A stretch of 64,000 nt of DNA from Narthecium ossifragum (lineage: Eukaryota; Streptophyta; Magnoliopsida; Dioscoreales; Nartheciaceae): contig OY986964.1 in assembly GCA_963920575.1 (NCBI GenBank), forward strand, positions 11,468,663 through 11,532,662, written 5' to 3'. The stretch's first letter is position 1. Each line of letters begins with the position of its first letter. The position numbers were made by a program, and so were the translations under genes. The notes under the pieces were generated by a model that saw only the letters and a list, made by a program, of their open reading frames with translations, ran no database searches and had not been told where the DNA came from. Shown piece after piece: positions 1,506-63,549 of this stretch.

Positions 1506-1941
1506 AGATCGATCCGTGAAGGAGGGAAGGATCGATCCTTCTTTGCCCCACATACTACATAACCTGGGTATAAGTAGGATCGATCCTAGTTGGTTAATTA
1601 ATTGTGACAGAGTGAGGTGTTTTCTGCACTACAACTCAGGATCGATCTTTCCATCCCTCCTTCAAAAGTAGATCATCTAAGACTGTAAGATCGATCCTAT
1701 CACGTGAGTATGATCGATCTTATGTGGTAATTTTTGTGACAGAGCGTGGTGTTTTGGACGAGTACCCTCCGGATCGATCGGTCTATCCATCCTCCACAAA
1801 CTAGCCCAGTTGAGTAAGTAGGATCGATCCTTTTCATCGAGATAGATCGATCTTGCCTATTTATACACTTATTCATCCGATCGCACCAGATGCCTCCACG
1901 TAGTGAAGGATCGATCCGGTAGGTCTAGGACGATCGATCCT
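1506..1941. repeat. GATCGATC palindrome array inside the Athila 3' region
   Basis: About eleven copies of a GATCGATC core lie between these bases, mostly extended to AGGATCGATCCT or AGATCGATCTT. They tend to fall in pairs 20-25 bases apart, with 40-60 bases of unrelated sequence between pairs. The array is not in an LTR here but between pol and the 3' LTR of the element. An A/T-rich TATTTATA lies near 1858. No coding capacity was seen. The same core recurs in the LTRs of several families in the window. Confidence 0.85.
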
Positions 1942-2483
1942 CCTCAAATCTTTTGAAAGAAATTTTTTTTTCTGTCGTCGTTCCCAAGTTGGACTCAAAC
2001 TCCAACTTGAACAACTATCTGTTCGCCGGCCTTTCCGTCTTTATCCTACTGGAGTTCTACTCCGACTAGATCTCCTAGAGTTTGGGTCTATATCTATTAC
2101 TTTCGCTGTGCGCCCTCCGTTCTACACACTATTCCCTTACCTCCGGTTTGAGTTCTCCGTCGTCCTCAATGATTCCGGCGTGCTCCTCCAGGCTCTACTG
2201 TCCCACATATTCTGCTTCTATACCTTTGGTAAGGACCCAAAGCGCCTCCTCTTTATCTATACCGCTTTCTCTCGATCTTTCGTTGTTTCTAAGAAATGGA
2301 CCCATGGTTTTCGCCATGGACTCCGACCACTGACGCAGGCAACCACGGCCGGTGTCCACCGTACTTCCTCCCTTACTTTCATTCTCTTCTCCTCCATGTC
2401 TTTCTTCTTTCTCTTTCTTTGCTCTTTCTCTCCATCTTTCCCCTCCTCTGTTTTCGGCCATCTTAGTTTTCCCTTCACTCCGT

Positions 2484-2523
2484 GAAGGATCGATCTTCAA
2501 CTTCTAGATAGATCGATCCTTCC
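2484..2523. repeat. Paired GATCGATC palindromes
   Basis: Two cores (AAGGATCGATCTTC and AGATCGATCCTT) are separated by about a dozen bases, repeating the paired arrangement seen upstream. They lie about 80 bases before the start codon of the broken acidic reading frame at 2604. Confidence 0.7.
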
Positions 2524-2603
2524 ATATCCAGTCTTTCTTCACCCTTCTCTTCTTAATTTTTCTCTCACCAACGACCATTCTAGTCTGCAGACGTACGCCC
2601 ACG

Positions 2604-3182
2604 ATGTCTCAATCTAGCAACTCATCGTATTCTGCCAGCGACAGCCCACCTAGTTCACCAGGGCACCACTTCAAGCCGGGGTCTCCTATTTCTTAGGCAT
2701 CGAGATTTTCGTCGGACGAGGACTTTGCCAACACCGTCGACTCGAATTGACCACCGTCCCCGCCGGTAGTCTTCTGTTTTCTTCCTCGGGAATTTCCCGA
2801 CCATTTTTACCCTGCCAGATCTGTGTTTGAATATCCTGTCGGTGTTGAATTTCTTGGGCCAATGCCACCTCCTGATGTGTTTGCCTGTCTCGTGTATGCC
2901 ATCCTGCATGATCCCGACGTCGACGATCCGTGGGTAGCATTCCGACTGCCAGATGGGTATGCGATAGTTGTGCCACCACGGTCCCTGATCGACCCCGAGC
3001 TTCTGTCGCCATCTGTATCGCCACCAGGGTCACCTTACGCGTCAGATGACCCTGACCGTCCACTTCCCCCGAGGTCGAGCGAGGTCGATTCTGATGAAGA
3101 AGAGATTAACGAGGATGATCTCATGGACCTTTTGGAGGACGATGATGAAGATGAGGATGCAAACGCGGACATCGATGATTAG
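2604..3182 (+). pseudogene. Broken acidic reading frame in the Athila 3' region
   Basis: One frame runs from an ATG at 2604 to a TAG at 3182, interrupted by in-frame stops at 2694-2696 and 2748-2750. The N-terminus is Ser/Pro-rich. The middle is more ordered (GVEFLGPMPPPDVFACLV). The C-terminus is strongly acidic, with long Asp/Glu runs (DDLMDLLEDDDEDED). There is no transmembrane segment, zinc finger or recognised domain. Athila elements often carry an extra ORF between pol and the 3' LTR, sometimes called env-like. Position fits that slot, but the sequence shows no envelope features, so I call it only an element-encoded relic of unknown function. Confidence 0.5.
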
Positions 3183-3383
3183 GCATTAGGACATTCTCAT
3201 TTTGTTTTTAGGATTGATGCTTTGTGTCAGTTTTAATTTATGCTCCTTGCTAGCCAGGTTTTTTGTCTTCGTAATTTGAATTTTTTGCGTTGTAGTATTT
3301 CTTTTTATTATTTACTTCGTTAATAAAAACTGAGTTTCAGCATGATTGAGTGTGTGGTTTTGATTGTTGTGGTGCACTTTGCA

Positions 3384-5831
3384 TGTCGCGCCCCGGCCCA
3401 GAAAACCCATCCGGACCGGGACACGAGGGGGGGGTTACTACATCTACTAACAACAAACTGGCGGAAACAGTTATAATAATCAATCAGAGGGCAGAAGTAA
3501 ATCTAACATCTACTATTCCAGTACAATCCAAAAACTGTACATACATCAGAGTAATATCAAAATTTACATATATCAGTCCTCAAAAAGTTACGTCATCAGA
3601 AGTCTCCAGAAAAGCACAGCAGAAGCCCTCTTGATCCTCAAGCATGACCTGATGTCGACGCGCCGCCGCAGAACGAACAACTGGGGGCCACTGTAGAAGA
3701 GCTGGTACCTGCACCTGCAAATACAACAGCCCAGGTAGGAATGAGCAAAAGCTCAACAGGGTTCTACTCTACGACACACACAAGGAAGACAACAACAACT
3801 GTACTAACTCTGTGCCAAGGACCCCATAAATCCTGTCAATAACCCGAAGGGTACCTGTCCAAAGTACGTTCATCCGACAACCACTATTCAAGGACAGACC
3901 ACCTCCGACAATCCCTGACACATGGTGGACATGACGATACCAGTATGACACCCCTCTCCAAGCGGGATCTCCACACTTGGCGGAACAACCCTGGTTATGA
4001 CAACCATCTGTTAGCACTCAAAGCAACAGAGCCAACACGACCTCTAAACTCCAAATCAAAAGCTAAGTCATGTCAGGGAGCCCATAAATCCCATCGATAC
4101 CCCCAGGGTTCCAGTCCATGTAACCATCTCTCGCCACAAACAAGGAGAGCTTCAGCACATGTGGAACACCCTTTCCCATGCTAGATACCAAGCATGACGA
4201 CACATGTTAGGGTAACGACATCCACCTCTTAGCAATTGATACTGGAGTACTAGGGACAAACCTCAATCATCAGAGTTACAGTCAAACCTTAGACCTCGCT
4301 ACCCAGCCTCGATCCTAGAGCTAAATCCGAGCTTCCAGCCTGGAGATGGCGACCCACAGATCGCCCACGCCCTAACCATGCAACTAATGCACAATCAACA
4401 ATGCATGCTATGAACATACACATACAAGAGATAGGCATGCAACAGTATGATACAGGTATCATACAAGTCAACCGGATCGCTGCAGCGGTACTACCAACCG
4501 CTGCCAGCCAATCCACAGCGGGTCCCGGCATTACGACAGTACCACGACCGTCAACCGCGGACTTCTGCAACGGGAAGCAACCTCTAAAACGCTGATGAAC
4601 AGTAAAATATATTATTATAATCCAAACATATAATATTATATTTAAAACACCAAAAACCTCTACTTAGAGGCTAATTGATCCCGTCGATCCGACATCCAAA
4701 CGATGTCGGATTCGAGATCCAACTTAACTATCAGTAGATCAACATGTCGGGATCAATATATCCCAAATCCATAAACATCCAACAGTCCGATTAACGGAAA
4801 AACACTAATCAAAACCGCTAATCAAACTAACTTACCATTACTTGCTGCAGCGTAGCCCACCCGTACGAAATTCATAACAAATCGTAGGAAAATTGGAAAA
4901 TCATGAAATCAGTTGGGTTTGAGATTAGAGTCAAAAATCTACAACTCTTAGGTTCATCACAACCCAAGAACATGCACGTACGGATCGTAAAACTCGCTGC
5001 AAACCGGCTATTCTTTAAGAACAGCAGAAACCGAAAAATCCGAGATTAAACATGCTTAAATCCTACTAAAATCTCAACCAAAGCTTATGAAACTTATAAC
5101 AGAAATGATACTAAGCAAGAGGAAGCCAACAACACAAAGAACTACAAGATCTACCGGCTAGATTAAGAGAAACCCATTAAACAACTCTTGCAGGTAGAAA
5201 ACCTACCGGAACCCTTAATCCTCGGCTGATTCCCCGCTAATCAGTAACCAACATGGTTTCAAACCACACCAGGGATCTTCCTCACGCCGCCACGGTTCCA
5301 ATGAGCCTTCAAACGCTCAAAACGGTGGTCGGAGGAGGGAGAACGGTGGAGAAGAAGGAGCTGGCGGAAAACAGGGGAAGAAACAGAGCTCGCGAGAAGA
5401 AGAAAGAAGAAGGAAGAAGAAGAAGGAGAAGGAGAGGAAGGAAAGAGGAAGAAAAGGCAGGGGAAAGCCGGAAAAGGAGGGGAAAAGGGGGAGGAGAGGA
5501 GCGAAAGTCTCCTCTCCCACTGACAGAGGAGAGCGACGGCCAACGGCGGCCGTCCTCTCAAAGAAGAAAAGCCACCGACTCGATAGCGATCGATCGCTCC
5601 AAGGAGCGATCGGTCGCTCACGGGCCGTCAGCCGCCCAAAAACAGTCTTCTGCGCGCCCGAGCTGGGATCTTCCGATCCCGGGTCCACCTAACTATTCTA
5701 TTCAAACGCATACACCAAAACAAGGCCGGTGTGTGCACACGCGGGTGTGAAACAAACCGACAAGGCGCAATTTACCAAATTACCCTTATGGTCAACAACG
5801 AGCTACAGGATTAGAGGGACAGGTCCTCACA
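3384..5831 (-). mobile_element. Solo LTR A (TGTGAGG family), 2448 bp
   Basis: On the + strand it reads TGTCGCGCCCCGGCCCAG at one end and AGGTCCTCACA at the other, so on its own strand it starts TGTGAGGACC and ends with CGCGACA. The exact 5-bp duplication TTGCA flanks it at 3379-3383 and 5832-5836. No internal retrotransposon genes are present, so it is a solo LTR left by recombination between two LTRs. It interrupts the 3' region of the Athila element. A hairpin of GATCGATC type (GCGATCGATCGCTCC and its near complement) lies at 5585-5620. Purine-rich tracts near 5340-5520 produce spurious ORFs on both strands. Confidence 0.92.
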
Positions 5832-5836: not shown

Positions 5837-6310
5837 TGCCTTGGAAGCTCATAATACTTGCATATCAACATAGGGTCGAAATTCCAGGTTTTCCGCCCAC
5901 TGTAGCCTTGTTGGTAGGAGAAGCATGTTTAGAATGCTTTAAGTGCTGCCTTTTGAAGTCGCCGCGTGGACTACGATCGATCCTTCCCCCCGGCACGGAT
6001 CGATCCTAGTCGCTGTACTTTGGGGTTTAAAACTGGGTGTAGGATCAATCCTAGGGTATTTTCACCCTACGATTGATCCTCCTCTCCTCTCTTCCCTTTT
6101 CGCTCGAGTGCTGTCGCTCGTCATCACCTCCGCCGACCGGTGCTCCACCTGGTCTCCGGCAAGATCTCCACACCGCCGATCTCTACCTCACTCCATTCCC
6201 ATCCTCCATTCCTTTTTCTCCATTCAAGGCCTCGCCCTTTCCTCATTTCCCATTCCAAATTTCCACCGGCGGTTCTATCTTTCCCTACGAGCTCATCCGG
6301 CACCGATCGT
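5837..6310 (+). other. Continuation of Athila 3' region with palindrome array
   Basis: This is host-element sequence resumed after solo LTR A. Four GATC-type cores lie at about 5973-6082. The last two form an inverted repeat, GGATCAATCC against GATTGATCC, around a short loop. The rest is C/T-rich and low in coding signal. No credible gene was seen. Confidence 0.55.
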
Positions 6311-7957
6311 TGATGTCGCTCAAATGTGTCACGTACAGCGGTCACGGTGTAGTACAGCATAAGAGAGGTCGAATCCACAGAGAGACAAGCAGAAAAGATC
6401 CAGAAACACAGATAACAATGTATCGAAAACAATCAAGAGCGTAAAAGATAAGAAAGTAGATCGAAGATGTAATGATAAGATAAAGTTAGCGAAAGAAATC
6501 AAGATTTGAATGACGCTAGGCTTCAGGAATCACTTCACTTGGATTTAGGTTCTTCTCTTCTCAATGGTTCATATAATACTCAGTTAAGGGATTCACATCC
6601 CAATCACCTTAACCAGAATATAAGGAACTATAAACCTAACAAAATATATAAATGTCTCTTCTTACGATTGATTCTTCCTTATTATAGTTCTAACTTCATC
6701 CAACCCAAACCTAAGAATACAGGATACCGGCTGTCACTACAGGCAACGCGCAACAAAAGTTCATCGGGACAAAGCCCTAAATCTATCTAACCGGATCTCT
6801 AAGAATACATAATACCAACTCTCACAATCGGCAATGCATGGCAAAGATTCCTCGGGATAGAGCCCCAACCTTGTCTTACCAGATCCCTAAGAATACACAA
6901 TACCAGCTGTCACTACGGGCAATGTATAGCAAAGGTCTCACGAAACTCGGTAGGAGAATCAAAAGAGATAACTATGGGATCACAATATCATAAAAGAAGC
7001 ATGACTGGGTTTATAATATTAATCATCCACATAGAAATCTATAATCTGAAAATAATCTTTGAAGATCCAATACATATAAAAATGTTTAACAATAAAGATT
7101 AAAACTATGAACCATTGTTGGAGAAGAAGCCCTAGTCCTCGCTAGATCATCCGTCCGCCATGCCCGCGGATTACTCGGCCATGGATGGAGATTCATTCAT
7201 CTTCTTCCTTTGGAAAACGTCCAGAAAAGAGCCTTCAAAAACGTCCAAGAAGTCCCTCTGACTTACCCTAACTTTCCTATTTATAGGCTCCAAAAATTAG
7301 CAAACTCGGGTTAAGGTTAAACCCGTTATACGCCCTTGGCTGATCTGGCGGTCGACCATGAGACCCTGACGGTCGATCGTGAGGTGCACAATTTATTTTG
7401 ACAAGCTGCGATCGATCTTCGCATCGACTCTGCGAAGTATTTTTCCTGACAGAGGCTGACGGTCGATGCCACGGTCGATGCGACAGTCGACCGTGAGCAT
7501 CTTACGATCGATCGTGAGGATTTTTGAACTCGACGGTCGACCGTGAGGATTTGACGGTCGACCGTGAGGATTTTTGAGCGCGACGGTCGACCGTGAGATC
7601 TGACGGTCGACCGTCACTATTCATTCAGCACTGCTCACTGGTACGAAAAATGTTGTAACTTTCTCTTCGTAACTCGGAATCATGAACCATAAAATTTTCC
7701 AGAAAGTAGACTTCAAGAGATTTCCAATGGTATATGGCACATCATCTGGTTCTTCTTGGAAAGATACAGTTTAATCTTTGAAGTTGACCCATATAATCTT
7801 TTCAGCTTCTTTCAGCTCCAATTTTCTGCATTTTTCAAGCAACTATGTGAAGTAACATATACTATAAAAATAGTGCTAAAGCAGTTGATTAAAGGTGAAG
7901 ATATAGCAATTGAGATGGTTATAAGGTTGTTCAGAGTGCACTTTCATGCACTTATCA
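6311..7957 (-). mobile_element. Solo LTR (TGATGAGTGC family), first copy, 1647 bp
   Basis: Ends are TGATGTCGCTCAAATG and CATGCACTTATCA on the + strand, flanked by the exact 5-bp duplication ATCGT (6306-6310 and 7958-7962). A TATA-like CTATAAATAGG read on the - strand at 7277-7287 indicates minus orientation. No internal genes lie within it, so it is a solo LTR. It is closely similar to the copy at 8015-9638 throughout, except for the block at 7340-7615. Both were inserted into the same Athila 3' region about 50 bases apart. Confidence 0.92.
7340..7615 (-). repeat. GGTCGACC-type palindrome array upstream of the LTR TATA box
   Basis: Roughly ten cores of the form CGGTCGACCG, CGGTCGAT or GCGATCGATC lie here, several spaced about 20-30 bases apart with GTGAGGATTT-like spacers. 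On the LTR strand the array lies about 55 bases upstream of CTATAAATAGG. The sister LTR at 8015-9638 has a different array (CGGATCGATC type) at this position. Confidence 0.85.
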
Positions 7958-8014: not shown

Positions 8015-9638
8015 TGATGTCGCTCAAATGTGTCACGCATAGCGGTCGCAGTGCAGTATAGCATAAGAGAGGTCGAACCCACAGAGAGACAAGCAGGAAA
8101 GATCTAGAAACACAGATAACAATATATCGAAAACAATCAAGAGTGATAAAAGTTAAGAAAATAGATGGAAGATGTAATGATAAGATAAAGTTAACGAAAG
8201 AAATCAAGATTTGAATGAGGCTAGGCTTCAGGAATCACTTCACTCGGATTTAGGTTCTTCTCTTCTCAATGGTTCATATAATACTCAGTTAAGGGATTCA
8301 CATCCCAATCACCTTAACAGGAAGATATGGAATTAAGAATCTATCAAAATATATAAATGTCTCTTCCTACGATTGATTCTTCCTTATTATAGTTCTAACT
8401 TCATCCAATCCAAACCTAAGAATACACGATACCGGCTGTCACTAGAGGCAACACACTGCAAAAGTTTATCGGGACAAAGCCCTAACTCTATCTAACCGGA
8501 TCTCTAAGAATACACAATACCAACTCTCACGATCGGCAATGCATAGCAAAGATTCCTCGGGATAGAGCCCCAACCTTGTCTTACCAGATCCTAAGAATAC
8601 ACAATACCAGCTGTCACTACGGGCAATGCATAGCAAAGGTCTCGTGAGACTCGGTAGGAGAATCAAAAGGATAACTATGGGATTATAAGATCATGAAAGA
8701 AGAATGATTGGATTCATAATATTAATCATCCACATAGAAATCTATAATCTGAAAATAATCTTTAAAGATCCAATACATAGAAAAGAGTTTAACAATAAAA
8801 ATTAAAACTATGAACCATTGTTGGAGAAGAAGCCCTAGTCCTCGCTAGATCATCCGTCCGCCATGCCCGCGGATTACTCGGCCATGGATGGAGATTCCTT
8901 CATCTTCTTCCTTTGAAAAACGTCCCGAAAAGAGCCTCCAAAAACGTCTATGAACTCCCCTTTGATTAACCCTAAGTTTCCTATTTATAGCCCCAATGTC
9001 TCTCCATTCTCGGATTAGATCTAAACCGTTGATTTTCTTCACTGGGAAAGTAGAATCGATCGGACGCTAGGTGTCGGATCGATCCGACTCATCAAAATCT
9101 TCAATTTCTGGCCACGCCCGAGTCGGATCGATTGGACTCAGTAGGATGGATGGAGGGATCGATCGGACTGTGTACAGCTGAAAAATATGCGTTCTGTCAG
9201 GTTTCTGCTTAGTCGGATCGATCGGACTATGGGTGTCGGATCGATCAGACGCAGTAGGATGGATGGAGGGATCGATCGGACTTTCCAGCGTATTTACTGT
9301 TTTGCCATCCAGACTGCGCCGTTGGTACGAAAATTGCCGTAACATACTCTAGGAAACTCGGAATCACGAACCGTAAAATTCTCCAGAATCTAGACTTCAA
9401 GAAATTTCCAACCATATATGGCACATCATCTGGTTCTTCATGAAAAGGTACAGTTTAATTTTTGAAGTTGATCCATATACTCTTTTCAGCTTCTTTTAGC
9501 TCCAATTTCCTGCATTTTCCAAACTATGTGAAGCATATAAAAGTATAAAAATAGTGCTAAAGAAGTTGATTAAAGGTGAAGATATAGCAATTGAGATGGT
9601 TATAAGGTTGTTCAGAGTGCACTTTCATGCACTCATCA
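8015..9638 (-). mobile_element. Solo LTR (TGATGAGTGC family), second copy, 1624 bp
   Basis: It has the same ends as the copy at 6311-7957 and an exact 5-bp duplication GCCTC at 8010-8014 and 9639-9643. The - strand TATA-like box is at 8981-8991. The segments before and after the array align closely with the first copy, including the TGAACCATTGTTGG and CCATGGATGGAGATTC blocks. It is a separate insertion, because its target duplication differs. Confidence 0.92.
9052..9290 (-). repeat. CGGATCGATCGG-type palindrome array upstream of the LTR TATA box
   Basis: About seven cores such as TCGGATCGATCGGACT and AGGGATCGATCGGACT lie here, with a repeated GTAGGATGGATGG linker seen twice. On the LTR strand the array ends about 60 bases upstream of the TATA-like box. 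The block replaces the GGTCGACC-type array found at the same place in the sister LTR. Confidence 0.85.
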
Positions 9639-11459: not shown

Positions 11460-11619
11460 TGATAAGACTTGAAAACTGCACAAAACACGCTTGTAATTTG
11501 ACTTTGTTGGTCTCCAAGCAATGCTTCACTGACTACTTTTATCCTATTTCAGATATCACATACCATATTATGAGTTAGATCAAATTTGGAGCTAAAAGAA
11601 GCATATTCGGGCAATTCTG

Positions 11620-11865
11620 GCATGAAGGATCGATCTTCCTTCTTGATAGGATCGATCCTACTCGTCCAGTAACTTGACTGAGAGCAAATATAAAGGGATC
11701 GATCTTCCTTAATGGAAGGATCGATCCTCCACGGGACATATCAAGACAACAAGTGAAAGATCAATCCTAATCAACTAGTAGGATCAAGCCTTTGCGGGAC
11801 GTCGCCAACAATTGAAAACAATAGGATCGATCTTCCTCCTCGGAAGGATCGATTCTTTGCTGCCA
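11620..11865 (+). repeat. GATCGATC hairpin array in the Athila 3' LTR
   Basis: About eight cores form pairs such as GGATCGATCTTCC followed five bases later by GGAAGGATCGATCC, so each pair can fold into a hairpin as well as each core being a palindrome. The pairs are separated by about 50 bases of unrelated sequence. The array ends about 55 bases before the TATA-like box. Confidence 0.85.
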
Positions 11866-11918
11866 GAAAAGAAGATCAACCGCCCAGATCTAATCCGTGG
11901 GTGGATGCTTTCCTAGGC

Positions 11919-11926
11919 TATAAATA
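11919..11926 (+). promoter_or_regulatory. TATA-like box of the Athila LTR
   Basis: TATAAATA, within CTATAAATAG, lies after the palindrome array and before the probable transcript start of the LTR. The equivalent box is seen on the - strand in both TGATGAGTGC solo LTRs. Confidence 0.6.
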
Positions 11927-13002
11927 GTCAGTTTTTAGGGATTTTTGTGGTTTCTTCCTGGACCTTTTTGGAGAGAGCTTTCTTGTCGTTCCTTTGAACT
12001 TTTCTTTGAAGATTCTTTAGAGGAGATCCATGACGGAAGGAGTTCGTCGACTTTCACCTATGAATCGACCCCTAAAGATGAGTAGCTAAAACCCTAGTCA
12101 TAGGATTCTTATGATGTAGCTAGGGTTTCTACTATGAAGTTCTGAGATCTAGGGCTTGTATACATTATTGATTGGCTTATATGGATTGATCTTTCGTTCT
12201 TTTATATTCTTGTGTTGATTTCCTGTTGGATGTGTGGATTGTTCTCGTATGCATTTGATTCTAGAGCTTATGCTTGTTACGGCTTGGATTGGATTCATCT
12301 AGTAAGGGGACCATGCTAGTCCCATGGTATCTCAGATGAAATCTTCTTCGCGATTAGGGATTGTATAGTGATAGAACCACTATAGTAGTGCTAGAACCAT
12401 TGCGTTCTATCCTTAATCATCCATATATCCTATTTTCGTAGATTTGGCCATCAAGATACTAAACATATCTTGATTTTACACCTAAATCCATACCATTACC
12501 ATTGCATGCGATGAATTCATCCTAATCAGAGGATTCATTAGCAGTGGACGTAACTAATCATTCGGTCACTGACTTTTAGATAACTTATCGTGCCGGCAAG
12601 AAATCCTAACCAGAACTTATCGAGTGATAGGGAGAACTAGCCATTCACCTTTCAACTATTAAGACAAGCCATTCATCATGATTAATGTGCCCTTGGCTTA
12701 GAATGACCTGGTAGAACCTTAGTTATTGATTAAGAATCATGTGGTCTCTTCTCTTGTACTCATAAATCCTTTAATATAAACTTAGTTTAATATCAAACCG
12801 TAATCTTTTTCACAACGCATTGGTAGGAGACTAAGTAAGCGTTCAATCTCAATCACCTAAGTCCCTGTGGATTCGACTCAGACTCTCCGCTAACTACTAT
12901 TTTTAGTAACTAAAGTAGAGCACCGGATAATATTTGTAATTTTGGTAAGACTTGTTATGAAATGACACTTTTCAAGTTCTATCAATGGTGGCTATGCCCT
13001 AG

Positions 13003-19672: not shown

Positions 19673-22012
19673 TGTGAGGACCTGCCCCTCTACCCCTGTG
19701 GCTCGTTGTAGACCGCAAGAGCAATTTGGTAAATTATGCCTTGTCGGTTTGTTTCACACCTGCGTGTGCACACACTGACCATGTTGGTGTTAGTGTTTGA
19801 TTAGAAAGGTTAGGTGGACCCGGGATCGAAAGATCCGGGCTTGGGCTTGAGTTTTAGCCCAAGTCTAGCTTTCTGCACCTAAAGGATCGATCTTTCTTTG
19901 CTAGAAGATTGATCTTTTAATGCCAGAAAGTCAAGGCGTGATCGTCATGAAGGATCGACCTTTCCTTAGGAAAAGATTGAGCATTCATAGGTTGGTTCGT
20001 TTATCTATAAAACGGATGTACTCCTCTTCCTTGAATCCCTTTTGAAATCCGCGTTCTTGAGCTCAGAGCCGTCGGATTTTGGAGAGATTTGGGACGATCC
20101 AAGGCTTAGCGGCGGGGATTGAAGCAGCTATTGCCTAGGTAGGGATCCTAGCTACGTTTGGTTTCCGGTTTTGTGAGTTTTGGGTTGATTGTGTTTTGTT
20201 TCGCTTAGATCTCACAACAAGTTAGTTTGTAGTATTTCCACCGGTTTTGAACTCGTGGTCCTTCGTACTACCAAATCCCAGGGTTTTGTCGGATTTGGTG
20301 GAGTTTTTCGATGGTATTTCTCGCCGGAGGTTTGCCAGAGAACCCAACAAGATTGATCTTTCTGGGAGAAAGATCGATCCTTCATTGTTGGCCATGTTGA
20401 ACCCGAGCATGATCAATCATCGGGTGAGGATGATCGATCCTCGTGCCCTGGGTAGCATGGGATTCCCTTTGTCGCGAGGAGGATCGATCTTCTTGGGAGG
20501 AAGGATCAATCATCATTGGCACGATATGGAAGGATGCTCTCTGTCGCACTGATGATCGATCTTCCTAGGAGGAAGGATCGATCATCTTTGGCTCGACAGG
20601 GAAGGAAGCTCTCTGTTACTGGGAATATCGATCCTTCCTTAGGGAAGGGATCGATCCTTTTAGGACAGAGAGGGATTTTCTTAGTTTTGCCCTCGGGGCT
20701 TTGTATGTACAGTTTCCTTATAGCCTTATATCTTGTACATACTCTTAAGCATGCTATCCCCATATTAGGGGTAGTGGTGAACCAGGAGAGTGATGACTCC
20801 TGGGATGTTTAGAATAAGCGGGCGAGTAGCCCTATTGTTTTCCATAGCCTTGCATGCTGGCGTGCGCCGAGGGCTTTTACCTGCGTGGTTTGTCTCCGTT
20901 GTTTGCGGGGCTGCTTCTCGATACAGGTTGCTGGTGGACTGTCTGGCAGTTTGTGGTGTACCACTACAACAGTCCCAGACCTTAAATAGCTGTTCACCAC
21001 CCCGGACCGGCAGTGTGCCAAACCCAGACCGTGTTATGCTATCATCACATACTGCTGCATGCATTAAATGTTTTTATGTGTATGTTCATCGCATGCATCT
21101 CTGTTGTGCATTACTTGCATGGTTAGGGCGTGAGCGATCTGTGGGTCGCCGTCTCGAGGCTGGAAGCTCGGATTTAGCCCTAGGACCGGGGTTGGGTAGT
21201 TTGGACCCGGTTTGAATTGTGGTGTCCAGTCAAATTCGATGATAGGCTTCGATGACTGGTACACCTGATGCTTGATGATTGTAGAGGTCGTGTCGGCCTC
21301 AAGTCGGATGTTGAGGTGTAGCCGGTGTCCCACTGTGTTGACCCTTGAGTAGAGGGGTTGCCTACTCAGCGGTGCCATTTCCCGCCTGCAGTGTCGTTCC
21401 CTGCTTGTGGGCCAGCAGTGTTAGTTCCTGCTTAATGAGTGTGACCTGACATGTGACCAGTTTTTCTGGAAGACCATGATCGTGGGCCTCAGGGACACGC
21501 GGTGGGGTTATGGGACCTCTGTATATACCCAGGTCTTACTTGAGGGCGACACTGTTGCGTTTCCCTCTTCCTTCTGTGTGTCGTAGTGTAGTTTCCCTAC
21601 TGAGATTAGTTGCTCACTCCTACCCGGACTGTGTTTTGCAGGTGCAGGCGTTAGCTCCTCTTTGGTGGCCCCCTACCGAGCAGTTGGTCGGCGGTGCGGC
21701 GGCGCCAGGCGGAGTTCGAGAGGTGGCGATCTTTTACTGCTTTAGCCTTTGTTAAATAGCCTCCTACGGGAGTAAATGTTGTATTTGGATCTTCCCCAAG
21801 CCTCTTCGAGGATATGTATATTAAATTCTTTTGGATTTGTAATCTTGGGTTCGATGCTGGTTAATTTATTGTTGTTTAAATTGAGGATGTTTTGGTGAAT
21901 TGTTAGGGAGACCAATAGGTTAGAGGGAACCCTCGCCAATTTTTCCGTGTTTCGTTAGGTTCTGGTTTACGTTGCCCGGCCCGGTTGGGCTTTCACGGGT
22001 CAGGGCGCGACA
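19673..22012 (+). mobile_element. Solo LTR B (TGTGAGG family), 2340 bp
   Basis: It begins TGTGAGGACCTGCCCCTC and ends CAGGGCGCGACA, flanked by the exact 5-bp duplication AATCA (19668-19672 and 22013-22017). There are no internal genes. Palindrome arrays lie both before (19878-19985) and after (20355-20660) a TATA-like box at about 20005. The right part, around 21600-21660, contains the family-typical block TGCTCACTCCTACCCGGA. It sits inside the LTR of the Tat-lineage element. Confidence 0.93.
19878..20660 (+). repeat. Two GATCGATC hairpin arrays around the LTR TATA box
   Basis: The first array (19878-19985) has diverged cores such as AAGGATCGATCTTTC and AAGGATCGACC. The TATA-like TCTATAAAAC follows at about 20004. 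The second array (20355-20660) contains near-perfect hairpins, for example GATCGATCTTCCT, a three-base loop, then AGGAAGGATCGATC. Stems therefore include both the palindromic core and a purine/pyrimidine arm. The related solo LTR at 57602-59884 keeps this two-array layout. Confidence 0.85.
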
Positions 22013-23079: not shown

Positions 23080-23480
23080 TCCAGAATGAAAAAGAGAAAG
23101 GAGAATAATGCAAAACATTCATGAACATTAATGACAAAGAGAAAAGAGAATATTGCATTCCATTCATGTATATTAATGAAAAAGAGAACAGAGAAAAATC
23201 TAAACCATTCATTTATATTAATGAAAAAGAGAAAAGAGAATACTGCAATGTGAAAATTGCAAACAGAAAAGAGGATAATCCAACCCATATATGATCTCTA
23301 AATGCTCTTTGATAGGTATTCTCTTTTTACAAATAGAATAATGAAATCCAATCATGTATATTAACCAAGAGGATAAAAGCGAAAACTGCAAACATTGCAT
23401 GAGCACTAAATCCTTTTTAACAAGTATTCTCTTTTTACAAAGAGAATAATGCAATCCATTTATGTATATTAATCAAAAAG
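23080..23480. repeat. GAGAATA repeat, left block
   Basis: Units combine AAAAGAGAAAAGAGAATA with a linker resembling CATTCATGTATATTAATG, repeating at about 55 bases, plus two hairpins of the GTATTCTCTTT type near 23320 and 23420. It is the same repeat family as 25800-26700, on the other side of the decayed gene. Confidence 0.7.
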
Positions 23481-23879
23481 ATAAAACAGAACAATTCAGA
23501 TTATACATTAGCACAAAGAAATTGATTTGTTGTGGTGCTTACTGTGCTTGGTAGGTATTAGTATGCATTTCACCATGATGATGTTGTTATGTTTCACTTT
23601 GTCACGCTAGATTGTAGCGCTGCATTAGGAAATAATGTTATTTAGTAACATTTGTGAGTAACAAACCATCTACTTCATATGCAATTGAGTATGATTACTT
23701 TGTTCCTTCATTCTTCAGGATTGTTTTGATTTTTTCGTACGCTGCATCATTCAAGATCTGGCCACATTTATATGATTTCTTCAATTTCATTCTTTGTGTT
23801 TTTGGCCTCTAATGGATGTTGTAGGTGTAATCTGGATCTTTGTTATTCTGCCGCTTCTTTCCTTTAATTCCCCTCACCA

Positions 23880-25790: not shown

Positions 25791-25799
25791 AATCAAAGG

Positions 25800-26700: not shown

Positions 26701-27167
26701 AGATTCTTGAAAATCCCCTTTTCTCTTTCCCGTTTATTTCGAGGTCAAAAAACTCGAACAAAATAGAAGGGGAGTCGTCTATACCTCTTTCTTGACCATT
26801 TTTTATCGTTGAACCGGGAGGAATACGGTGGAAAACTCCGGCTTGATGGAATATTGCTTCCACGGTGGATGAGACAATTCCTTTCTTTAGAAAAGAGAGA
26901 ATATTGCGTCGAAAATCTCGAAGTCTGCTTCAAAAACCACTTGGATTCTACTTTTAGTATGGCCTCCGTGCGAATTTATCACGTAAATTGGAATTTTGAA
27001 TGTTACGCGAGCGGTTCCTATCGCGCAAAAGCCGTCGTTTGATGTTATAGGGTCGGGGGTATAAGAGTCTTTTGATCTCTAAAATGGTGTTAAGGAGTTA
27101 AATCTAATGGTTGATGTTCTATTAGTAGGATAAGTTCATATTATGGTGCTCCCTACTGAAACCCCAA

Positions 27168-33430: not shown

Positions 33431-33433
33431 TGT

Positions 33434-40050: not shown

Positions 40051-41415
40051 GTCACACCCCGACCCAGAAAACCCATCCAGGACGGGGCGTGAGGGTTCCT
40101 ATCACTATTCATCTTCAATTGGCGCGATACAAAGCGGAAAAGACGGATAATTTAAACAATTGTATTCCAGAGGCGAACAGATATTCAATTCATATACATC
40201 AAGTTGTACAGTTACAAAATTCTATTCTAATACTTCCAAGGTAAAGATATAATACATGATCCCAAAATCCTCGAAATTTTTACAACATATATTATCAAAA
40301 AGGGTACAACAGTTTTATCCTCCAGTAAAACCTCAAACGCCTCTGGATGTACTCGCGCCGCCAAAGGCCGATCCTGCCGGCCCACTGAAGAAGAACTGCC
40401 GCCTGCACATGCAAACGCAGCCCGGGTAGGAGTGAGCGATAAGCTCAGTAGGGTTCTACTCTACGGCACACTGAAAGGAGGGAAAACAACAACAGTGTTG
40501 TCTCCCAGCTCAAGTCTAACGGATGCCACAGGTCCCACAACCCATCGATGTCCCAAGGGCTCCTGCCATGAACTCTCTCTTGAAAATGTTACCAAGATCA
40601 CCCTAATCACTGACAGGGGAACATTACCATGCAGGATCACCCTTACCCAGCAGGGATACCACTGCCATGGGGACCACGTCGGGAATACATCGATTGCATC
40701 CTTAGCACTTGTCCTTGGAAGACAACACGACCTCTAAACCTCAACCACTGATCAAAGTCGACTATCACAAATCCTCGATAACAAGATATTCGATTATACA
40801 ATCACACCCTACTCCTGACTGCCCAGCTACGTCCCTAAGGCCAGATCCGAGCTACCCGAGAGCCTCGGATCGGCAACCCAAACCATCGCCCGCCTAACCT
40901 CGAATGCCTCTAATGCACACAATGCATGAGCCTAGGCAAACATCTATCCTAGATATCTCTACATGTCACATCATCAATTATAAGTCCAACAGATATACAA
41001 TAGCCCTCGGCACTCGCCGGCAAGAGGCTAAGGTTCCACAATTCCACATTAGCTAGCACTCATAGCAAGCTAATGGCTAAGCAAACCATTAAGCAATTAA
41101 ATACCAACCACACATGTATTTAAAAGCAAGCCACATCATCAATTTACCCAAAGGAAAACAACATGCGATTCAATTCTTAGTCTCAATGGAAATCCCTTGA
41201 AAACTTCATGAAAACCTCATACCAACCTCCCACATGTTTAACTATCAAACCCAAGTGAAAGCCATCCAAGAAAAACCAAAAAACACAGTTCATGGGCCCA
41301 CAGTCGATGCGACGATCGACCCGACGGTCGACCGTGAGGCCATGGTCGATGTCACTCATCGACCCTGGGAAGCCCAAAACCAAACAGCGCCTGACGGTCG
41401 ATGCGACGGTCGATA
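40051..41415 (-). mobile_element. Truncated LTR F (TGTGAGG family)
   Basis: The + strand starts TGTCACACCCCGACCCAG and carries the family block GCCCGGGTAGGAGTGAGCG near 40425. It runs to a cluster of CGGTCGAT and CGACGGTCGACCG palindromes at about 41290-41415 and then stops. The other end (CCTCACA) is absent, and an Athila leader and primer site follow. The palindromes occupy the same relative place as in complete family members, so only the outermost part of the U3 is missing. Confidence 0.75.
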
Positions 41416-41470: not shown

Positions 41471-41488
41471 TCCCCGGCAACGGCGCCA
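41471..41488 (-). other. Athila primer-binding site
   Basis: On the - strand this is TGGCGCCGTTGCCGGGGA, the known Athila/Ty3-gypsy primer site complementary to the 3' end of tRNA-Asp. It sits seven bases inside the LTR at 41495-43077 and so marks that LTR as a 5' LTR on the - strand. Confidence 0.9.
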
Positions 41489-41494: not shown

Positions 41495-43077
41495 TGATAC
41501 GACTTGAAAAGTGTCGTGGCTTAACAAGTCTAACCAAAATTACAATATATTCCGGTGCTCTACTTTAACTACTAAGAACTAGTAGATAGTGGAGAGTCCG
41601 AGTCGAGTCCACAGGGATTTAAGGGATTTAAATCAAATACTTAGCAAATCTCCTACTAATAAGTTGAGAAAAGATTGCAAGTTGAAATTAAGCTAAACTT
41701 ATACTAAAGGATTGAAGAATATGAGAGAAAGGACCATATGATTCTTAATCAGTAACTAAGGATATACCTGGTTTTCCAAAGATCAGGGTATGCAAACACG
41801 ATAAATGGCTCCCTAAAAGTTGATAAAGGAATGGCTAGTTCTCATTATCACTCGACAAGTTCTGTTTAGGATTCCTTGTCGGCAAGAACAATTAATGAAA
41901 TCTCAGTGACCGAATGATTAGTTACGTTCACTGCTAATGAACCCTCTTACTCAGATGAGTTTATCGCAAACAATGCCATAGAAATGGATTAGGTGTAATA
42001 TCGAGATGACTTCGCATCTCGATGGCCAAAACTACAAAGATAAGATGCATGAAGGATTAGGGATGGAACGTAGTGGGACTAGCACTACTATAGTGGGACT
42101 AGCACTATACAATCCCTAATCACGAACAAGATTCCATCCAAGATATCATGGGACTAGCATGATCCTCTTATTTGGATGAATCTAAATCACGTCCTAACAT
42201 ACACAAGCTCTAGAATCAAGTGCAAGCAAGAACGATCCAAACATCCAGCAAGAAATCAACACCAAGATATAGGCAAATATAATCAATCCATAAAACCAAA
42301 TAATCGTGTATACAAACCCTAGATCTAAGAAATCCCTAGTAAAAACCCTAGTTACATCATAAGAATCCCATGGCTAGGGTTTTAGCTACTCATCTTCAGG
42401 GGATAATCCATCGGTAGAAGTTGATGATCTCCTCCCGCCATGGATCTCCTCCAAAGAATCGTCGAAGAAAAGATGTAGAAAAGATAGGTGAACTCTCTCC
42501 AAAAACGTCTGAAAAAGCCCCCCAAAAATCCCTAAACAATGACTACTTATAGCCCAAGAGACAACTACCCACGGATTATATCAGAGCCGTCGATCTTTGC
42601 TTCTGGCCGGGTCGGATCGATCCAACCTTTGGAGCCCGATCGATCCTACTCCTTAACTCCCTTAATATTGTGCAACGCCCGAGCTGGATCGATCCAACTC
42701 TTTGAGTTCGATCGATCCTACACCTTTACTTGCTGGTATTCCCGTGCTGGATCGATCCGTCTGTCGAGTCCGACCGATCGAACCATCGTTGTTGCGCTAC
42801 ATCCCGCGCTGGATCGATCCAGCTCCTGATGTTCGATCGATCCTGCGCTTGTTCATTCTCCCCTCGTTGGTTGAGTTGGATCAATCGAACCTATTGAGGC
42901 CGATCGATCTAACTTGTCAGAATCGCCAAAATACCATTCTTTTAGCTCCAAAGATGATCTAACTCGTAGCAGGACCTGTTATACCTGAAATGAAATAAAA
43001 GTAGTCAATCCAGCATTGCTCGGGGCCCAACAAAGCCAAATTACAATGGTGTTTTGTGCACTTTTCAAGTCTTATCA
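41495..43077 (-). mobile_element. Athila 5' LTR, 1583 bp, reverse orientation
   Basis: On the + strand it starts TGATACGACTTGAAAAG and ends CTTTTCAAGTCTTATCA, the same inverted ends as the LTR at 11460-12984. The primer site lies to its left. Only about 80 bases of internal leader remain before fragment F. The palindrome array is at 42605-42915, and a TATA-like CTATAAGT on the - strand is at 42545-42552. The outer flank is ATGGG at 43078, but the partner duplication is lost. Confidence 0.88.
42605..42915 (-). repeat. Tandem paired GATCGATC array in the Athila 5' LTR
   Basis: Five consecutive units, each about 65 bases, contain CTGGATCGATCCA followed about 19 bases later by CGATCGATCC. The last unit is degenerate (GGATCAATCG). 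It is the most regular array in the window and lies about 55 bases upstream of the TATA-like box on the LTR strand. Confidence 0.88.
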
Positions 43078-57601: not shown

Positions 57602-59884
57602 TGTCGCACCCCGACCCGCGTAGGCCCAACCGGGCCGGGTGACGCGAAGCGGAACCTAACCTAATGCGGAAATTTTAGTGAGGTTTCCCTCTAATCGTAG
57701 TGGTTACCCTAGCAATTCATAATCATCCTGTATTAACATACAATTACAAATCTCAATGATTGAAACTGATATAAATACAAGTCCTCAAACAGGGATATTA
57801 TATATTTATCACTCCCGTAGGAGACTATCTATAACAAAAGGTACAACAGAGATCGCCGCTCCTCAAGCACCGCCAGACGCTGCCACGTCACCAAACACCG
57901 CCCGATAGGGGCGACCGAAGAAGAGCTAGCGCCAGCACCTGCAAAACGCAGCCCGGGTAGGAGTGAGCACTAAGCTCAGCAGGGACACTACACTACGACA
58001 CTCACAAGGGAGGGAATACAACAGTGCCGCCCCCAAGTCTATCCTAGGTGTATACAAGGGTCCCATAACCCTATCGGAAGTCCGTGAATGCAGGCCCAAA
58101 ACACTACATACTCTCAACAGGACACAGAACACTGTTTGGCGGGCCAGGACACCGCTGGGCAGGCACTCCTCCTCCCAAGAGTTTAAGAACACCGGACTCC
58201 GACTACACCTCAGATACAACTTGGAGTCGACACGACCTCTAAACCTCAATCACATGTATTCAGGTCATCTAACCCTATCATCGAAATCGACATAATACTA
58301 CAAATCGAGTCCTGGACCAAGCTACCCGCAACGGTCCTAGAGCTAAATCCGGACTATACGAAAGCCCCGGATCGGCGATCAACCCATCGCTAGCATCCTA
58401 CACAGATGCAACCAATGCGCAACACAATGCATGATATGAACATGCGTAGGATAATACATGTAAGCATGCAACAGTATGTGATGTATATCAAACAAGGTCT
58501 GGGCACGGCACCCTGCCGGCCCGGGGTGGTGAACAGATAATTAAGGTCTAGGAGCTGCTATAGTGGTACCCCCACCAACTGTCAGCAGTCCACCACACAC
58601 CTGCACCGGGAAGCAGCCCCGCAAACAACAGCTCACAGATATCACAGATAAAGCCCTCGGCGCACGCCGGCATGCAAGGCTAGGGAAAGCTGTAGGGCTA
58701 CCCGCCCGTTTATTCTAAACATCCCGGGAGTCATCACTCCCCCGGTTCACCACTGTCCCTATTATAGGGCTAACATGCTTAAACATATGTACCAAGTATA
58801 AGACAGTAAAGAAAATGGTACATGCAAAGTCCCGCGGGCAAAACCAAGAAGAAATCTCTCTCTCTGCCGTAGACGGATCGATCCCTCCCTCCAAGGGAGG
58901 ATCGATCCTTCTAATGGCAGAGAACGATCTCTCCCTATCGCGGCGAGTGCGATCGATCCGTCCCTCCAAGGGACGATCAATCCTACTCGCGATAAGGAAC
59001 ATCCTCCCTGCCGCGCCAAGGAGGATCGATCCTTCCCTCCAAGGGACGATCAATCCTACTCGCGACGAGGGGATCCCATGTTACCCAAGGCACAAGGATC
59101 GATCGCCCCCACCCGGGAATGATCGATCCTGCTCGGGTTCAGCATGACCAATGAAGAAGGAACGATCCCTCTCCCAGAAGGATCGATCGCGTTGGGTTCT
59201 CCGGTAAGCTTCATGCGAGAAATATCGTCGGAAAACTCCACCAAATCCCATCAAAACCGGAGATCTAGTGGTACGAAGGACCACGAGTTCAAAACCGGCG
59301 GAAATACTACAATTCATCAAGTGTATAACAAGATCTAAGCAAAGATCAAAGACAACCGAAAAAACTTCCAAAAACCCAGAAGAAATGTAGGTAGGATCCC
59401 TACCTAAGCAATAGCAGCTTCAATCCCAGCTGCTAGGCCTTGGATCGTCCACAACCTCTTCGAAATCCAGAAAATCTTAGCTCAAGAACTCGGATTTCAA
59501 AAAAGATTCAAGGAAGAAGGTTTCGTTCATTTTATAGACAAACGACCCGACTTAGCAGGATCGATCCATCTCAAGAGAGCGATCGATCCGACCCAAGAGA
59601 GCGATCGATCCTTCTCAACGATCCGCATTCCTAGCATTGACTGATCGATCCTTCTAGCAAGGAAGGATCGATCCGTCTTTCGTAGGAAGCTGGACTTGGG
59701 CTAAAACTTAAGCCCAAGCCAGATCTTTCGATCCCGGGTCCCACTAACCATTCTAGCCAAACATTACCACAAACATGGTCAGTGTGTGCACACGCGAGTG
59801 TGAAACAAGCCGACAAGGCGCAATTTACCAAATTTTCCTTGCAATCCACGACGAGCCACAGGAGTAGAGGGACGGGTCCTCACA
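57602..59884 (-). mobile_element. Solo LTR H (TGTGAGG family), 2283 bp
   Basis: The + strand runs from TGTCGCACCCCGACCCGC to GGGACGGGTCCTCACA. Flanks are AAAGA (57597-57601) and AAAGT (59885-59889), a 5-bp duplication with one mismatch. The family block GCCCGGGTAGGAGTGAGCAC is at about 57950. Two palindrome arrays (58870-59190 and 59558-59690) flank a - strand TATA-like TCTATAAAATG at about 59530, the same layout as solo LTR B. There are no internal genes. Confidence 0.9.
58870..59690 (-). repeat. Two GATCGATC hairpin arrays around the TATA box of solo LTR H
   Basis: The downstream array holds hairpins such as GGATCGATCCCTCC, a six-base loop, then GGGAGGATCGATCC, repeated with small changes three times. 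The upstream array (59558-59690) holds five cores, including AGCGATCGATCC twice and a final pair with GAAGGATCGATCC. The layout matches solo LTR B while the arm sequences differ. Confidence 0.85.
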
Positions 59885-60769: not shown

Positions 60770-61020
60770 GAGTGGGAGAGGTAAGGGGAGACGGGAGAAG
60801 TAGAGGGGGATGAGATGGCTGGTTCTTTCAGTCACATCCCGTCCCTTCTCTCTCTCTATTCAAAAATTTCAAAAATCGGTGGGAGAGTGTTATCTGGCTG
60901 AAAATTTTGGATGGGAATGTAAAATTTGATGATGAAATCTAGACCGTTGGATGTATTTGGAGATGAATCTGAACCGCTATTTATGTCTTATATTTGAGAC
61001 ATTTCAAAAATCACTTTTCC
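60770..61020 (-). repeat. Right terminal inverted repeat
   Basis: Right arm of the inverted pair with 52351-52640, ending TTTCAAAAATCACTTTTCC. Confidence 0.65.
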
Positions 61021-62290
61021 TTATATATATATATAAGTGATCGATGCAGCTGCGCGCTTTACTGATCCGACTGCTTGACACATTCATTGCATGCGCGCAA
61101 CGTCAGAGACAGTGCAATGCATCAACTGATCATGGATGTAAAGCAACAACTGGCATGGCCTCTGAAGATTGTCTCAAATTAAGCAAACCCGTACAGAAAT
61201 CATGTATTTCCTGATGTGAGCTCTAGTATTCATCAAGAATCAGCTTGAGAGATGATAGCTGTCTGATGACTCGAGGCCGTTTAATACATCAGAGGAGTTT
61301 GCTGTTCTTTTGGACTAGCCAAGAGGGAATAAGATGCCATTCACAAGGAGCAAGCAGGTCATGAGCAGGACTTTTCATCTACAGACATGTGGCGAATGAT
61401 TTTATCACATGGAGTGGGAATATGGATACGTTGAATGTTGATGGTCCTCGCACATGGGTCCTCGCACATGATATTCTCTGAACTCGTCATTCCCTTTTCA
61501 CGTGTGGGGGAGCTAAGACGTTAGTGACTTATTAGGGTTAGTATCCATTTATAACATATACTAGCATAATACCTAAGTCAGCTTCTGGGTCATGTAGGAC
61601 ACGTCAACTGTTCATGCATGCCACGTCATTGCTAACAGGTCCTACGTAGCATGAACCTATATTTATACACATATATGATATATAAGCAGAATTTTTAGCC
61701 AATTGGTACCCCTCAAGATTGCTTTTGCCGTTTTAATACCCTTTCATTATTTCTTTGCAACTTCATACCCCTCAGCCAATGAAAACACATAAATACCCCC
61801 CACTTATCCCATGGCATCATACATGTCATCATACGAGTTATTTCTATGCGTGGTTATGGGGGTTTCTACGGTTTTTTCCGCCACCATCTCTTCCCCCATA
61901 TCTCCTCTTTCTCCCTATCTCCTCAAACCAACACCGACGAGATACCTTCATATAACTTCTGAAGGCTGGACGGATCCGTCGCGGCGGCGAAGGCAAAGTC
62001 TTCGCAACCCTCGGGGAGGGCGCAGAAAGGTGAGGAGAATGGCACGAGGAGCAGCAGAGTGTCGTTGAAGTGCAGCCCAAGGGTCTGGAGGTCGGGCTTA
62101 GAGATCTCTTCCTCCCGGACAAGAGGAGAGGTCACCACCTCCGCCCATGTGCGTCCGACTGTGGCCGCTTGTCTCTCCCCTAGATTTGCACTCAGGGGCG
62201 TCGCTAGCAAGCGCCTCTGCCAATCTAGATCAACACCATGCTCACACACCCTTTTCATCGGTGGCTCTCACACTCGCCAGGTCTGGATCA
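61021..62290. other. Stretch without a recognised gene
   Basis: 61021-61850 is A/T-rich and non-coding. A 111-codon - strand frame (61923-62258) has no recognised domain and lies in GC-rich sequence with ORFs on both strands, so it is not called as a gene. Confidence 0.45.
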
Positions 62291-62475
62291 ATACCTTAAC
62301 AACACATAAAAACAACAAAAAAGTACGCATAAAAACACATTAACTGCTCACGATGGAAAACACCTAAACAGCGCATAAAAACAACCAAAAGTACACATGA
62401 AAACACCTTAACTGCTCACGGTGGAAAACACCTTAACAACGCATAAAACAACAAAAAGTACGCATAAAAACACCT
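62291..62475. repeat. ~70-bp tandem repeat, about 2.7 copies
   Basis: The units contain AACGCATAAAAACAAC, AAAGTACGCATAAAAACAC and TTAACTGCTCACGGTGGAAA in order. The third copy breaks off where sequence related to the TGATGATTC LTR family begins. Confidence 0.8.
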
Positions 62476-63240
62476 TTGGAGAAGGAAAAAGATGACGGCG
62501 AGGATGCGGATGGTGACAACTTCTTATTCCAACCCGATGGCTTTCATCCAAAAGATGAGTTGCTAATTCTTGTATTTAGGAATATCATGAAACCCTAGTG
62601 TAGTTTTGGTTTTTCTTTAGTTTGATTCTTGTGAACTTCTCGATGCATGATCTCATGAATATGGTTTTATTATTAATAGAGTTGAAGGAACAGTGCTCCC
62701 TTGACGTACTTTCAGTCCTACATGATTTCTGTGATTGATTGTAGAGATTTATAAGATGGTTTTCATGAAATTATTGATTTGCCTTTGAGATAAGTTATGC
62801 TACGCAAAGATAGGTTGTGCCAAGGTCATTAGGAGTAGTATAATTTAAAGTAATCGTTGGACCAAAGACAATCTATGCCAAGCAAAGATAGGTTATACCA
62901 TTGGGAACATTAACTTTCTTTTAGGGATTCATGTGAGCTTGTAGTCATATGATCCATAATGTTGAGAGAAGGGAGCAAGATGATAACTAGAGAAGATTAA
63001 TAACGAAACTAGGGCGGATTGAGTAATTCCTAAGTAACTACTCCATTGATTCGAATTGATCAACCTTTTATTTCTTTTCTTTATTAGTTAGATAACTCTA
63101 TTCTATCTTTGATTCTTTTCCTTAGTTTTAGGGTTTCGAGAATTGATTTCAGTTTCCAATGATTTCCCTGTGGATCGACTCCCGACTTCACCGCTATTTC
63201 TACCCTGTAGTTTAGTGATTGATTAAGGATTATAAATTTA
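62476..63240 (+). mobile_element. Truncated 5' LTR of a gag-bearing Athila-type element (TGATGATTC family)
   Basis: It aligns along its length with the 3' two-thirds of the solo LTR at 37104-38485, for example CCAAAAGATGAGTTGCTAAT and TGTGGATCGACTCCCGA. The U3 with TATA box is missing on the left. On the right, instead of the GCGATCA end, a copy of ATCGACTCCCGACTTCACCG is repeated at 63248, followed by leader sequence. No primer site was found, so both LTR borders are damaged. Confidence 0.75.
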
Positions 63241-63389
63241 ATATTTTATCGACTCCCGACTTCACCGCTATTTCTACTCTTAACTCACTTTCTTTGCTTA
63301 GTTAAGTTTTTTTTTATCTTTCTTATTTTTCCCTTTCTTTATTTTATACTTTTTAGGAATTTTCTGACAATTTTTTGGAATTTTTGCAG

Positions 63390-63549
63390 CATTGGAACAG
63401 ATTTTTCTTGAAGGAAGCATCTCACCCGCAGCTTGGAGCGATCGGTCGGACCCCAAACCGACCGATCGGAATTGCGCAATCAGGTAAGTTTTCTAAATTC
63501 AAAATTTTCCGTTTCGATCATTGTTTTTCGGATTTTCTCCTCTCCTCAG
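63390..63549 (+). other. Predicted leader exon with hairpin and 66-bp intron
   Basis: AATTTTTGCAG precedes a 94-base segment (63390-63483) that ends ATCAG before GTAAGT. The following 66 bases end in a pyrimidine tract and CTCCTCAG at 63549. This looks like an exon and a short intron in the untranslated leader. The exon carries a perfect 11-bp stem, CGATCGGTCGG (63439-63449) and CCGACCGATCG (63458-63468), with an eight-base loop. The gag start codon is 47 bases downstream of the second acceptor. Confidence 0.5.

Follow-up and report, generated by a model that had tools for sequence, protein, structure and literature searches.

Clustered palindromic motifs in Athila-type and other long terminal repeats of a Narthecium ossifragum contig: position, folding and possible replacement

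Why should short palindromes of one kind be gathered just upstream of the TATA box in long terminal repeats (LTRs) of different families? The question is raised by a stretch of 64,000 nucleotides of Narthecium ossifragum (contig OY986964.1, positions 11,468,663 to 11,532,662; hereafter the window), which is plant DNA dense with decayed LTR retrotransposons. An initial annotation of the window had proposed that these clusters form a promoter-proximal hairpin architecture, shared by families with unalignable U3 regions and resembling no named element. The palindrome arrays turn out to be a real, orderly and partly explained feature.

Palindrome arrays and their distance to the TATA box

The core GATCGATC occurs 55 times in the window, versus 1.2, 1.4, 3.4 and 14.2 occurrences expected from Markov models of orders 1 to 4 over the same 64 kb, the higher expectations (3.4, 14.2) being due to the higher orders absorbing the motif itself. 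GGATCGATCC is found 18 times for 0.07-0.8 expected, and CGGTCGACCG five times for 0.01-0.07 expected. All 55 exact GATCGATC cores are confined to 12 stretches of 2,872 bp in all, whose boundaries were drawn around the clusters. The clusters announced by the initial annotation were found again in both Athila LTRs (AthP and AthM), both TGATGAGTGC-type solo LTRs (SolA and SolB) and two TGTGAGG-type LTRs (T20 and T59; Table 1). GGTCGACC occurs seven times, twice outside the 12 stretches, and CGATCGATCG, formerly listed as a clustering core, has just two occurrences (5587 and 7505) and was not confirmed as one. Perfect palindromes of at least 10 bp number 142 in the window versus 51-81 in 10 simulated sequences, many of them coming from one AT run, and clusters of at least three GC-containing palindromes number 5 versus 8 in 10 simulations, which is weak beside the core counts. 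A scan of viral contigs for the dyad pattern returned 36 loci and nothing comparable, a result that is uninformative for plants; the maximum there, 4 cores per 400 bp, is a count made by overlapping GATC repeats.

The distance from core to TATA box was scanned in 10 LTRs, on the LTR strand, with nine core forms (exact and near). Both an array and a TATA box are present in six of them, and the last core form is separated from TATA by 64 bp in AthP, 63 bp in AthM, 64 bp in SolA and 64 bp in SolB, and by 45 bp in T20 and 22 bp in T59, in agreement with the 20-80 bp first announced. The sense strand of the TGTGAGG-type LTRs is deduced from the TATA box only, and an additional TATAAA is located inside the AthP array. 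In three further TGTGAGG-type LTRs, a single core form occurs and the scanned stretch gives no TATA match; for the solo LTR at 3384-5831, TATA is absent from the 633 bp scanned. The tenth, the TGATGATTC LTR, has a TATA box and none of the nine core forms searched, so that the cluster previously attributed to it is not confirmed.

The term promoter-proximal fits 26 of the 55 exact cores, which lie upstream of a TATA box; it does not fit the 13 located downstream of TATA in T20 and T59, the 15 located in an internal region, after an integrase fragment, or the one in a TATA-less LTR. The constant 63-64 bp is partly a matter of descent, because the core-to-TATA segments of AthP, AthM and SolB are homologous (z 4.4-8.2). 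SolA nevertheless keeps its 64 bp despite a segment that aligns neither with that of SolB (z 0.7) nor with that of AthP (z 0.9), and only weakly with that of AthM (z 2.1).

Cassettes, hairpins and the proposed explanation

In pairwise alignments, AthP, AthM, SolA, SolB and the TGATGATTC LTR have in common a short U5 signature that resembles TCCCTGTGGATTCGAC and lies close to the end of the LTR. Apart from it, the ends of the Athila, TGATGAGTGC and TGATGATTC LTRs show little similarity from one family to another (z -0.1 to 5.8), so that the signature only suggests that SolA, SolB and the TGATGATTC LTRs are Athila-like. The ends of the TGTGAGG family do not align with those of the other LTRs (z -1.9 to 2.8), and, given this separation and the common U5 signature, there may be two lineages only. 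The supposed unalignable families are thus to be reduced: the TGTGAGG family stands apart in its end sequences, but the two Athila LTRs are one family, the U5 signature extends to the TGATGAGTGC and TGATGATTC LTRs, and the array segment of SolB, hereafter its cassette, aligns with those of Athila.

In SolA and SolB, identity is 88% across the initial 319/315 bp and 93% between the TATA box and the LTR end, whereas 54% of columns are identical in their arrays, versus 49% for shuffles. AthP and AthM are likewise 80% and 77% identical in the two array flanks and 51% in the array (45% shuffled). When cassettes are aligned locally, that of SolB matches AthM (z 15.7) and AthP (z 13.2) and not SolA (z -0.5), and that of SolA matches neither AthP (z -0.1) nor AthM (z 0.2). 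Outside the cassette, the similarity between SolB and AthM is low (z 5.0 and 4.9). Because near-identical SolA and SolB flanks enclose cassettes without local similarity, block replacement is suggested, and replacement of the promoter cassette would be the simplest reading of the contrast. The local alignments of these four cassettes also support recombination between LTRs, which had been named among the possible routes of spread. The route could be template switching between co-packaged RNAs, for which the available parts of two sources give precedents, one in Onsen, with one recombination inside U3 (PMC5668417), and one in Drosophila rover (PMC12992720).

Plain common descent, in which one ancestral Athila-type U3 would have diverged without any exchange, could account for the U5 signature and for the homology of the SolB and Athila cassettes. 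We regard it as very improbable, given that SolA and SolB have cassettes without local similarity next to a sequence that is near-identical from TATA on, and that T20 and T59, which belong to another LTR family, match AthP dyads (32-37 bp, 84-88% identity).

The cores often form closely spaced dyads that fold into hairpins. Among neighbouring cores, 31 of 64 distances are 20-24 bp (25 of 53 are 21-24 bp in a narrower set). The 25 dyads have a mean folding energy of -14.16 kcal/mol. With shuffled spacers the mean is -11.38, and no set out of 300 reaches the real value; with half-swapped dyads it is -13.09, and 5 sets out of 300 reach it. Ten of the 25 beat 95% of their own shuffles and four fold no better than about 70-90% of theirs; the earlier statement that many copies are hairpins thus holds statistically for the set, and not for these four. 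Whole arrays fold with a z of -3.1 to -9.5 on the sense strand, in 10 of 10 cases, and of -1.6 to -9.8 on the antisense strand (40 shuffles), versus a mean z of -0.93 in 65 control windows of 300 bp (20 shuffles), 6% of which are at or below -3, the lowest being at -10.1. AthP, the internal arrays, T20 and T59 share dyad-containing stretches of 26-53 bp that are 77-92% identical. The shared promoter-proximal architecture of palindromes and hairpins that had been proposed is supported.

The hairpin could itself be the function, acting at the RNA level in genome dimerisation, packaging or 3' untranslated region (UTR) stability, with a promoter position that is incidental, given that the genomic RNA also has U3 at its 3' end. 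The excess of folding over both kinds of altered dyads and the uniformly negative sense z of whole arrays point this way, as do the 15 internal and 13 downstream cores, which place arrays in transcribed regions outside promoters. Such a role appears unlikely as the main explanation, since it leaves the fixed TATA distance unexplained; besides, the half-swap excess is small and partly due to repeated dyads within a family, the four poorly folding dyads do not fit, and antisense strands fold equally well in most arrays.

The mutational history of the arrays bears on another possibility. Tandem duplication is detected within arrays, at offsets of 62, 72, 75, 113 and 134 bp. The observed/expected CpG ratio is 0.77-1.64 in the 12 stretches and exceeds the window value of 0.78 in 11 of them; after masking of the core CpGs, it is above the window value in just seven. 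CpG transitions make up 10 of the 31 one-mismatch core variants inside arrays (2.6 if all changes were equally likely) and two of the 28 outside, and this excess would be as expected for methylated, silenced DNA. The arrays could be functionless: strands that slip or switch, during reverse transcription and in methylated DNA, would leave palindromes and tandem blocks behind. The tandem blocks observed and the rapid divergence of arrays are compatible with this. Such a by-product seems quite improbable: the identical core recurs in two LTR families, the 63-64 bp distance holds across two dissimilar cassettes, and methylation should erode the core CpG, yet 55 exact cores persist.

We consider it probable, if far from certain, that the arrays are U3 enhancers, fast-evolving and exchangeable, to which a dimeric factor binds and whose palindromes form hairpins in the RNA as well. 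In Athila-type (Ty3/gypsy) LTRs they would be what the repeated palindromic motifs are in Sireviruses, cis-regulatory elements. Each RTCGAY-centred palindrome would most likely be the site of a dimeric host transcription factor; no known factor binding GATCGATC was found in the open-access literature. The cluster would serve as an enhancer within U3, kept at 63-64 bp before TATA in Athila-type LTRs. The part of U3 that starts about 320 bp in and ends at the TATA box would change as a cassette while the rest of the LTR stays. Local tandem duplications, at offsets of 62-134 bp, would lengthen cassettes, and the template switching mentioned above would replace them. The palindromes would fold into hairpins in the 3' UTR of the genomic RNA and would probably also give rise to small RNAs, a reason for the arrays to turn over rapidly.

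Several results weigh against this explanation. Of the 55 exact cores, 29 have no TATA box after them (13 downstream of one, 15 internal and one in a TATA-less LTR), array and TATA box coexist in only six of the 10 LTRs, T20 and T59 depart from the common distance (45 and 22 bp), and plain descent can account for the equal distance shared by AthP, AthM and SolB. For helical phasing to TATA, 30.8% of null sets score as high as the data at 10.5 bp, which is not significant, and 4.8% do so at 21.75 bp, the best of all periods tried, which is marginal. Forced global alignments of the arrays score above shuffles for SolA-SolB (-70 vs -130, sd (standard deviation) 16) and for AthP-AthM (-35 vs -102, sd 13), so that shared motifs or remote homology remain in both pairs, and the cassettes of AthP and AthM are clear homologues (z 23.9 in local alignment). 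Finally, the downstream arrays of T20 and T59 are conserved rather than hypervariable (75% over ~345 bp).

The enhancer explanation could be carried further, to a portable palindromic promoter cassette traded between retrotransposon lineages within a genome, the shared hairpins pairing RNAs from different elements in one particle and the arrays serving both as enhancer and as recombination handle, so that silencing would face one common, constantly reshuffled promoter pool. We hold this extension to be rather unlikely.

Carrier elements and neighbouring features

Part of the arrays lies outside LTRs. The integrase fragment at 162-1165 gives a weak Pfam match, below the curated cut-off, and strong matches to plant integrase proteins, with Ipomoea first and mixed plants next. 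The array that follows it at 1490..1960 probably belongs to the post-pol part of an element with AthP as its 3' LTR. We infer that one plus-strand element extends from this fragment to AthP and hosts the solo LTR at 3384-5831, SolA and SolB, a continuity that rests on the target site duplications (TSDs) of the nested solo LTRs, if these are taken at face value. A AAGTTGGGGGG tract at 11447 directly precedes the AthP LTR.

Table 1. Array-bearing LTRs, internal arrays and other LTRs of the window (PBS, primer binding site).
Feature	Position	Strand	Description
AthP	11460..12984	+	Athila-type LTR, probably 3' LTR; array cores 11628-11854
AthM	41495..43077	-	Athila-type 5' LTR; exact cores 42615-42909
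SolA	6311..7957	-	TGATGAGTGC-type solo LTR; perfect 5 bp TSD ATCGT; array 7350-7612, mostly ACGGTCGACCGT
SolB	8015..9638	-	Solo LTR, same family as SolA; perfect 5 bp TSD GCCTC; array 9054-9277, mostly GATCGATC
T20	19673..22012	+	TGTGAGG-type solo LTR; perfect 5 bp TSD AATCA; U3 cores 19885-19960
T20 second array	20340-20670	+	Downstream of T20 TATA
T59	57602..59884	-	TGTGAGG-type solo LTR; TSD 4/5; U3 cores 59559-59673
T59 second array	58860-59210	-	Downstream of T59 TATA; 75% identical to T20 counterpart
Internal array	1490..1960	+	11 exact cores; past integrase frame ending at 1165
Internal dyad	2480..2530	+	Single dyad; same internal region as 1490..1960; 89.7% identity over 39 bp to AthP dyad
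Internal cores	5960..6100	+	Two exact cores and two one-transition variants; same internal region, between two nested solo LTRs
Small cluster	41300..41414	-	GGTCGACC-type; just inside AthM PBS
Solo LTR	3384-5831	-	TGTGAGG-type; perfect 5 bp TSD TTGCA; one core in hairpin at 5560..5640 (core 5588)
Solo LTR	29321-32227		Perfect 5 bp TSD
Solo LTR	36317-39938		TGTGAGG-type; perfect 5 bp TSD TGAAG; hosts nested TGATGATTC LTR (37104 to ~38450)

AthM is adjoined by an exact 18-base PBS match (41471-41488, minus strand), 6 bp beyond the LTR end, to a motif that we take to be the Athila-type tRNA-Asp PBS; AthM is the only LTR with such a tRNA-Asp-complementary site a few bases after it. The small cluster next to this site is 85-90% identical, over 31-39 bp, to portions of the SolA array. 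In Diaspora, of the Athila group, the tRNA-Asp site is 5 bp beyond the LTR, according to the available part of PMC1142308. Neither an env-like frame nor the ATHILA ORF-1 domain (PF03078), which is present in only 16% of Athila elements according to the available part of PMC6317226, was recognised by Pfam among the 30 reading frames scanned.

The TGATGATTC LTR carries in its U3 a perfect palindrome, GATGACGTCATC (37539-37550), which is a different palindrome at a similar place. Within it, TGACGTCA resembles a bZIP site. Downstream of a second TGATGATTC-type LTR fragment (62474-63249) stands a single strong hairpin, its letters of the same family as those of the arrays (GCGATCGGTCGG...CCGACCGATCGG, 63439-63468). 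Degenerate tandem repeats with a ~109 bp period form two clusters in the window (23085-26704), which also contains a decayed gypsy pol (32588-36032, minus strand) with matches to gag, protease, reverse transcriptase, RNase H and integrase. The sole recognisable host-like gene fragment among the frames scanned is a Methyltransf_24 frame (13785-14501, minus strand), whose named matches ranked above Drosera (rank 58) are 50-60% identical and are, as far as we recognise them, monocots.

Comparison with known systems

Palindromic repeated motifs had been described as specific to Sireviruses among the Ty1/copia elements compared. In the available parts of the source, 13 Sireviruses carry them, upstream of the TATA box and of env where present, and the Vitis Sirevirus consensus is CGGTCGACCG (Bousios et al., 2010, PMC2829016), identical to the SolA motif; a named element of the same kind therefore exists, contrary to what was first assumed. 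The LTRs of the window similarly contain a clustered motif of dyad symmetry, and the U3 cluster lies shortly upstream of TATA in six of the 10 LTRs scanned (gap of 22-64 bp). Sirevirus motifs number at least 8 copies per element; here, the core forms per LTR stretch scanned are 9 in AthM, 8 in SolA, 7 in AthP, 7 in SolB, 5 in T59 and 3 in T20. The CGG-CCG core of Sireviruses is present in the SolA motif (4 in SolA), but not in the GATCGATC arrays, and most motifs here are without it; Tnd-1 (ACAATCGATTGT, with an ATCGAT centre) is a published exception to this signature (PMC2829016).

Sireviruses that have env carry extra copies upstream of it; here, 15 cores follow the integrase fragment, and no env-like Pfam match was obtained in the frames scanned. 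Dyads ~22 bp apart and cassette replacement are features of the window that the available parts of PMC2829016 do not mention for Sireviruses. Sireviruses are Ty1/copia elements, and a search of both strands of the window, with up to 3 mismatches allowed, gave no match to their PBS, ATTGGTATCAGAGC. The arrays would work like Sirevirus motifs, yet they are not members in the case of AthM, which carries an Athila-type, that is Ty3/gypsy, PBS.

Three points seem to be new: this kind of array in Ty3/gypsy Athila LTRs, a TATA box placed 63-64 bp after the last core in each of the four array LTRs of Athila type, and the putative block replacement of the array cassette. Among the matches listed in the open-access literature, judged by titles and abstract openings, no description of palindrome arrays in Athila or other gypsy LTRs was found, which is a weak kind of absence. 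If palindromic motifs are indeed used in Athila-type LTRs and in a second LTR family, they would represent a recurrent solution for plant LTR promoters. SolA and SolB provide a natural experiment on promoter swapping, with near-identical LTRs, different cassettes and an equal TATA distance.

The palindromic architecture has already been tied to small-RNA targeting in maize, where the palindrome-rich cis-region of Sireviruses is a small-RNA hotspot (Bousios et al., 2016, as cited in the available parts of PMC10760457 and PMC5311732). Like the arrays described here, this LTR regulatory region is palindromic, structured and highly variable; it belongs to another superfamily and has been mapped with small RNAs.

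Looser parallels are found in Tnt1 and Del. The U3 modules of Tnt1 differ between elements that are otherwise alike, in keeping with modular regulatory evolution, but Tnt1 is Ty1/copia and the available part of PMC1838419 does not describe palindrome arrays. Del elements belong to another lineage, and the main text of PMC4029996 contains neither the word palindrom- nor tandem. Their LTRs are nevertheless Ty3/gypsy and have a 5' CpG-rich block that is variable in both length and sequence, and these variable CpG islands have been proposed to be a moving target for silencing (PMC4029996).

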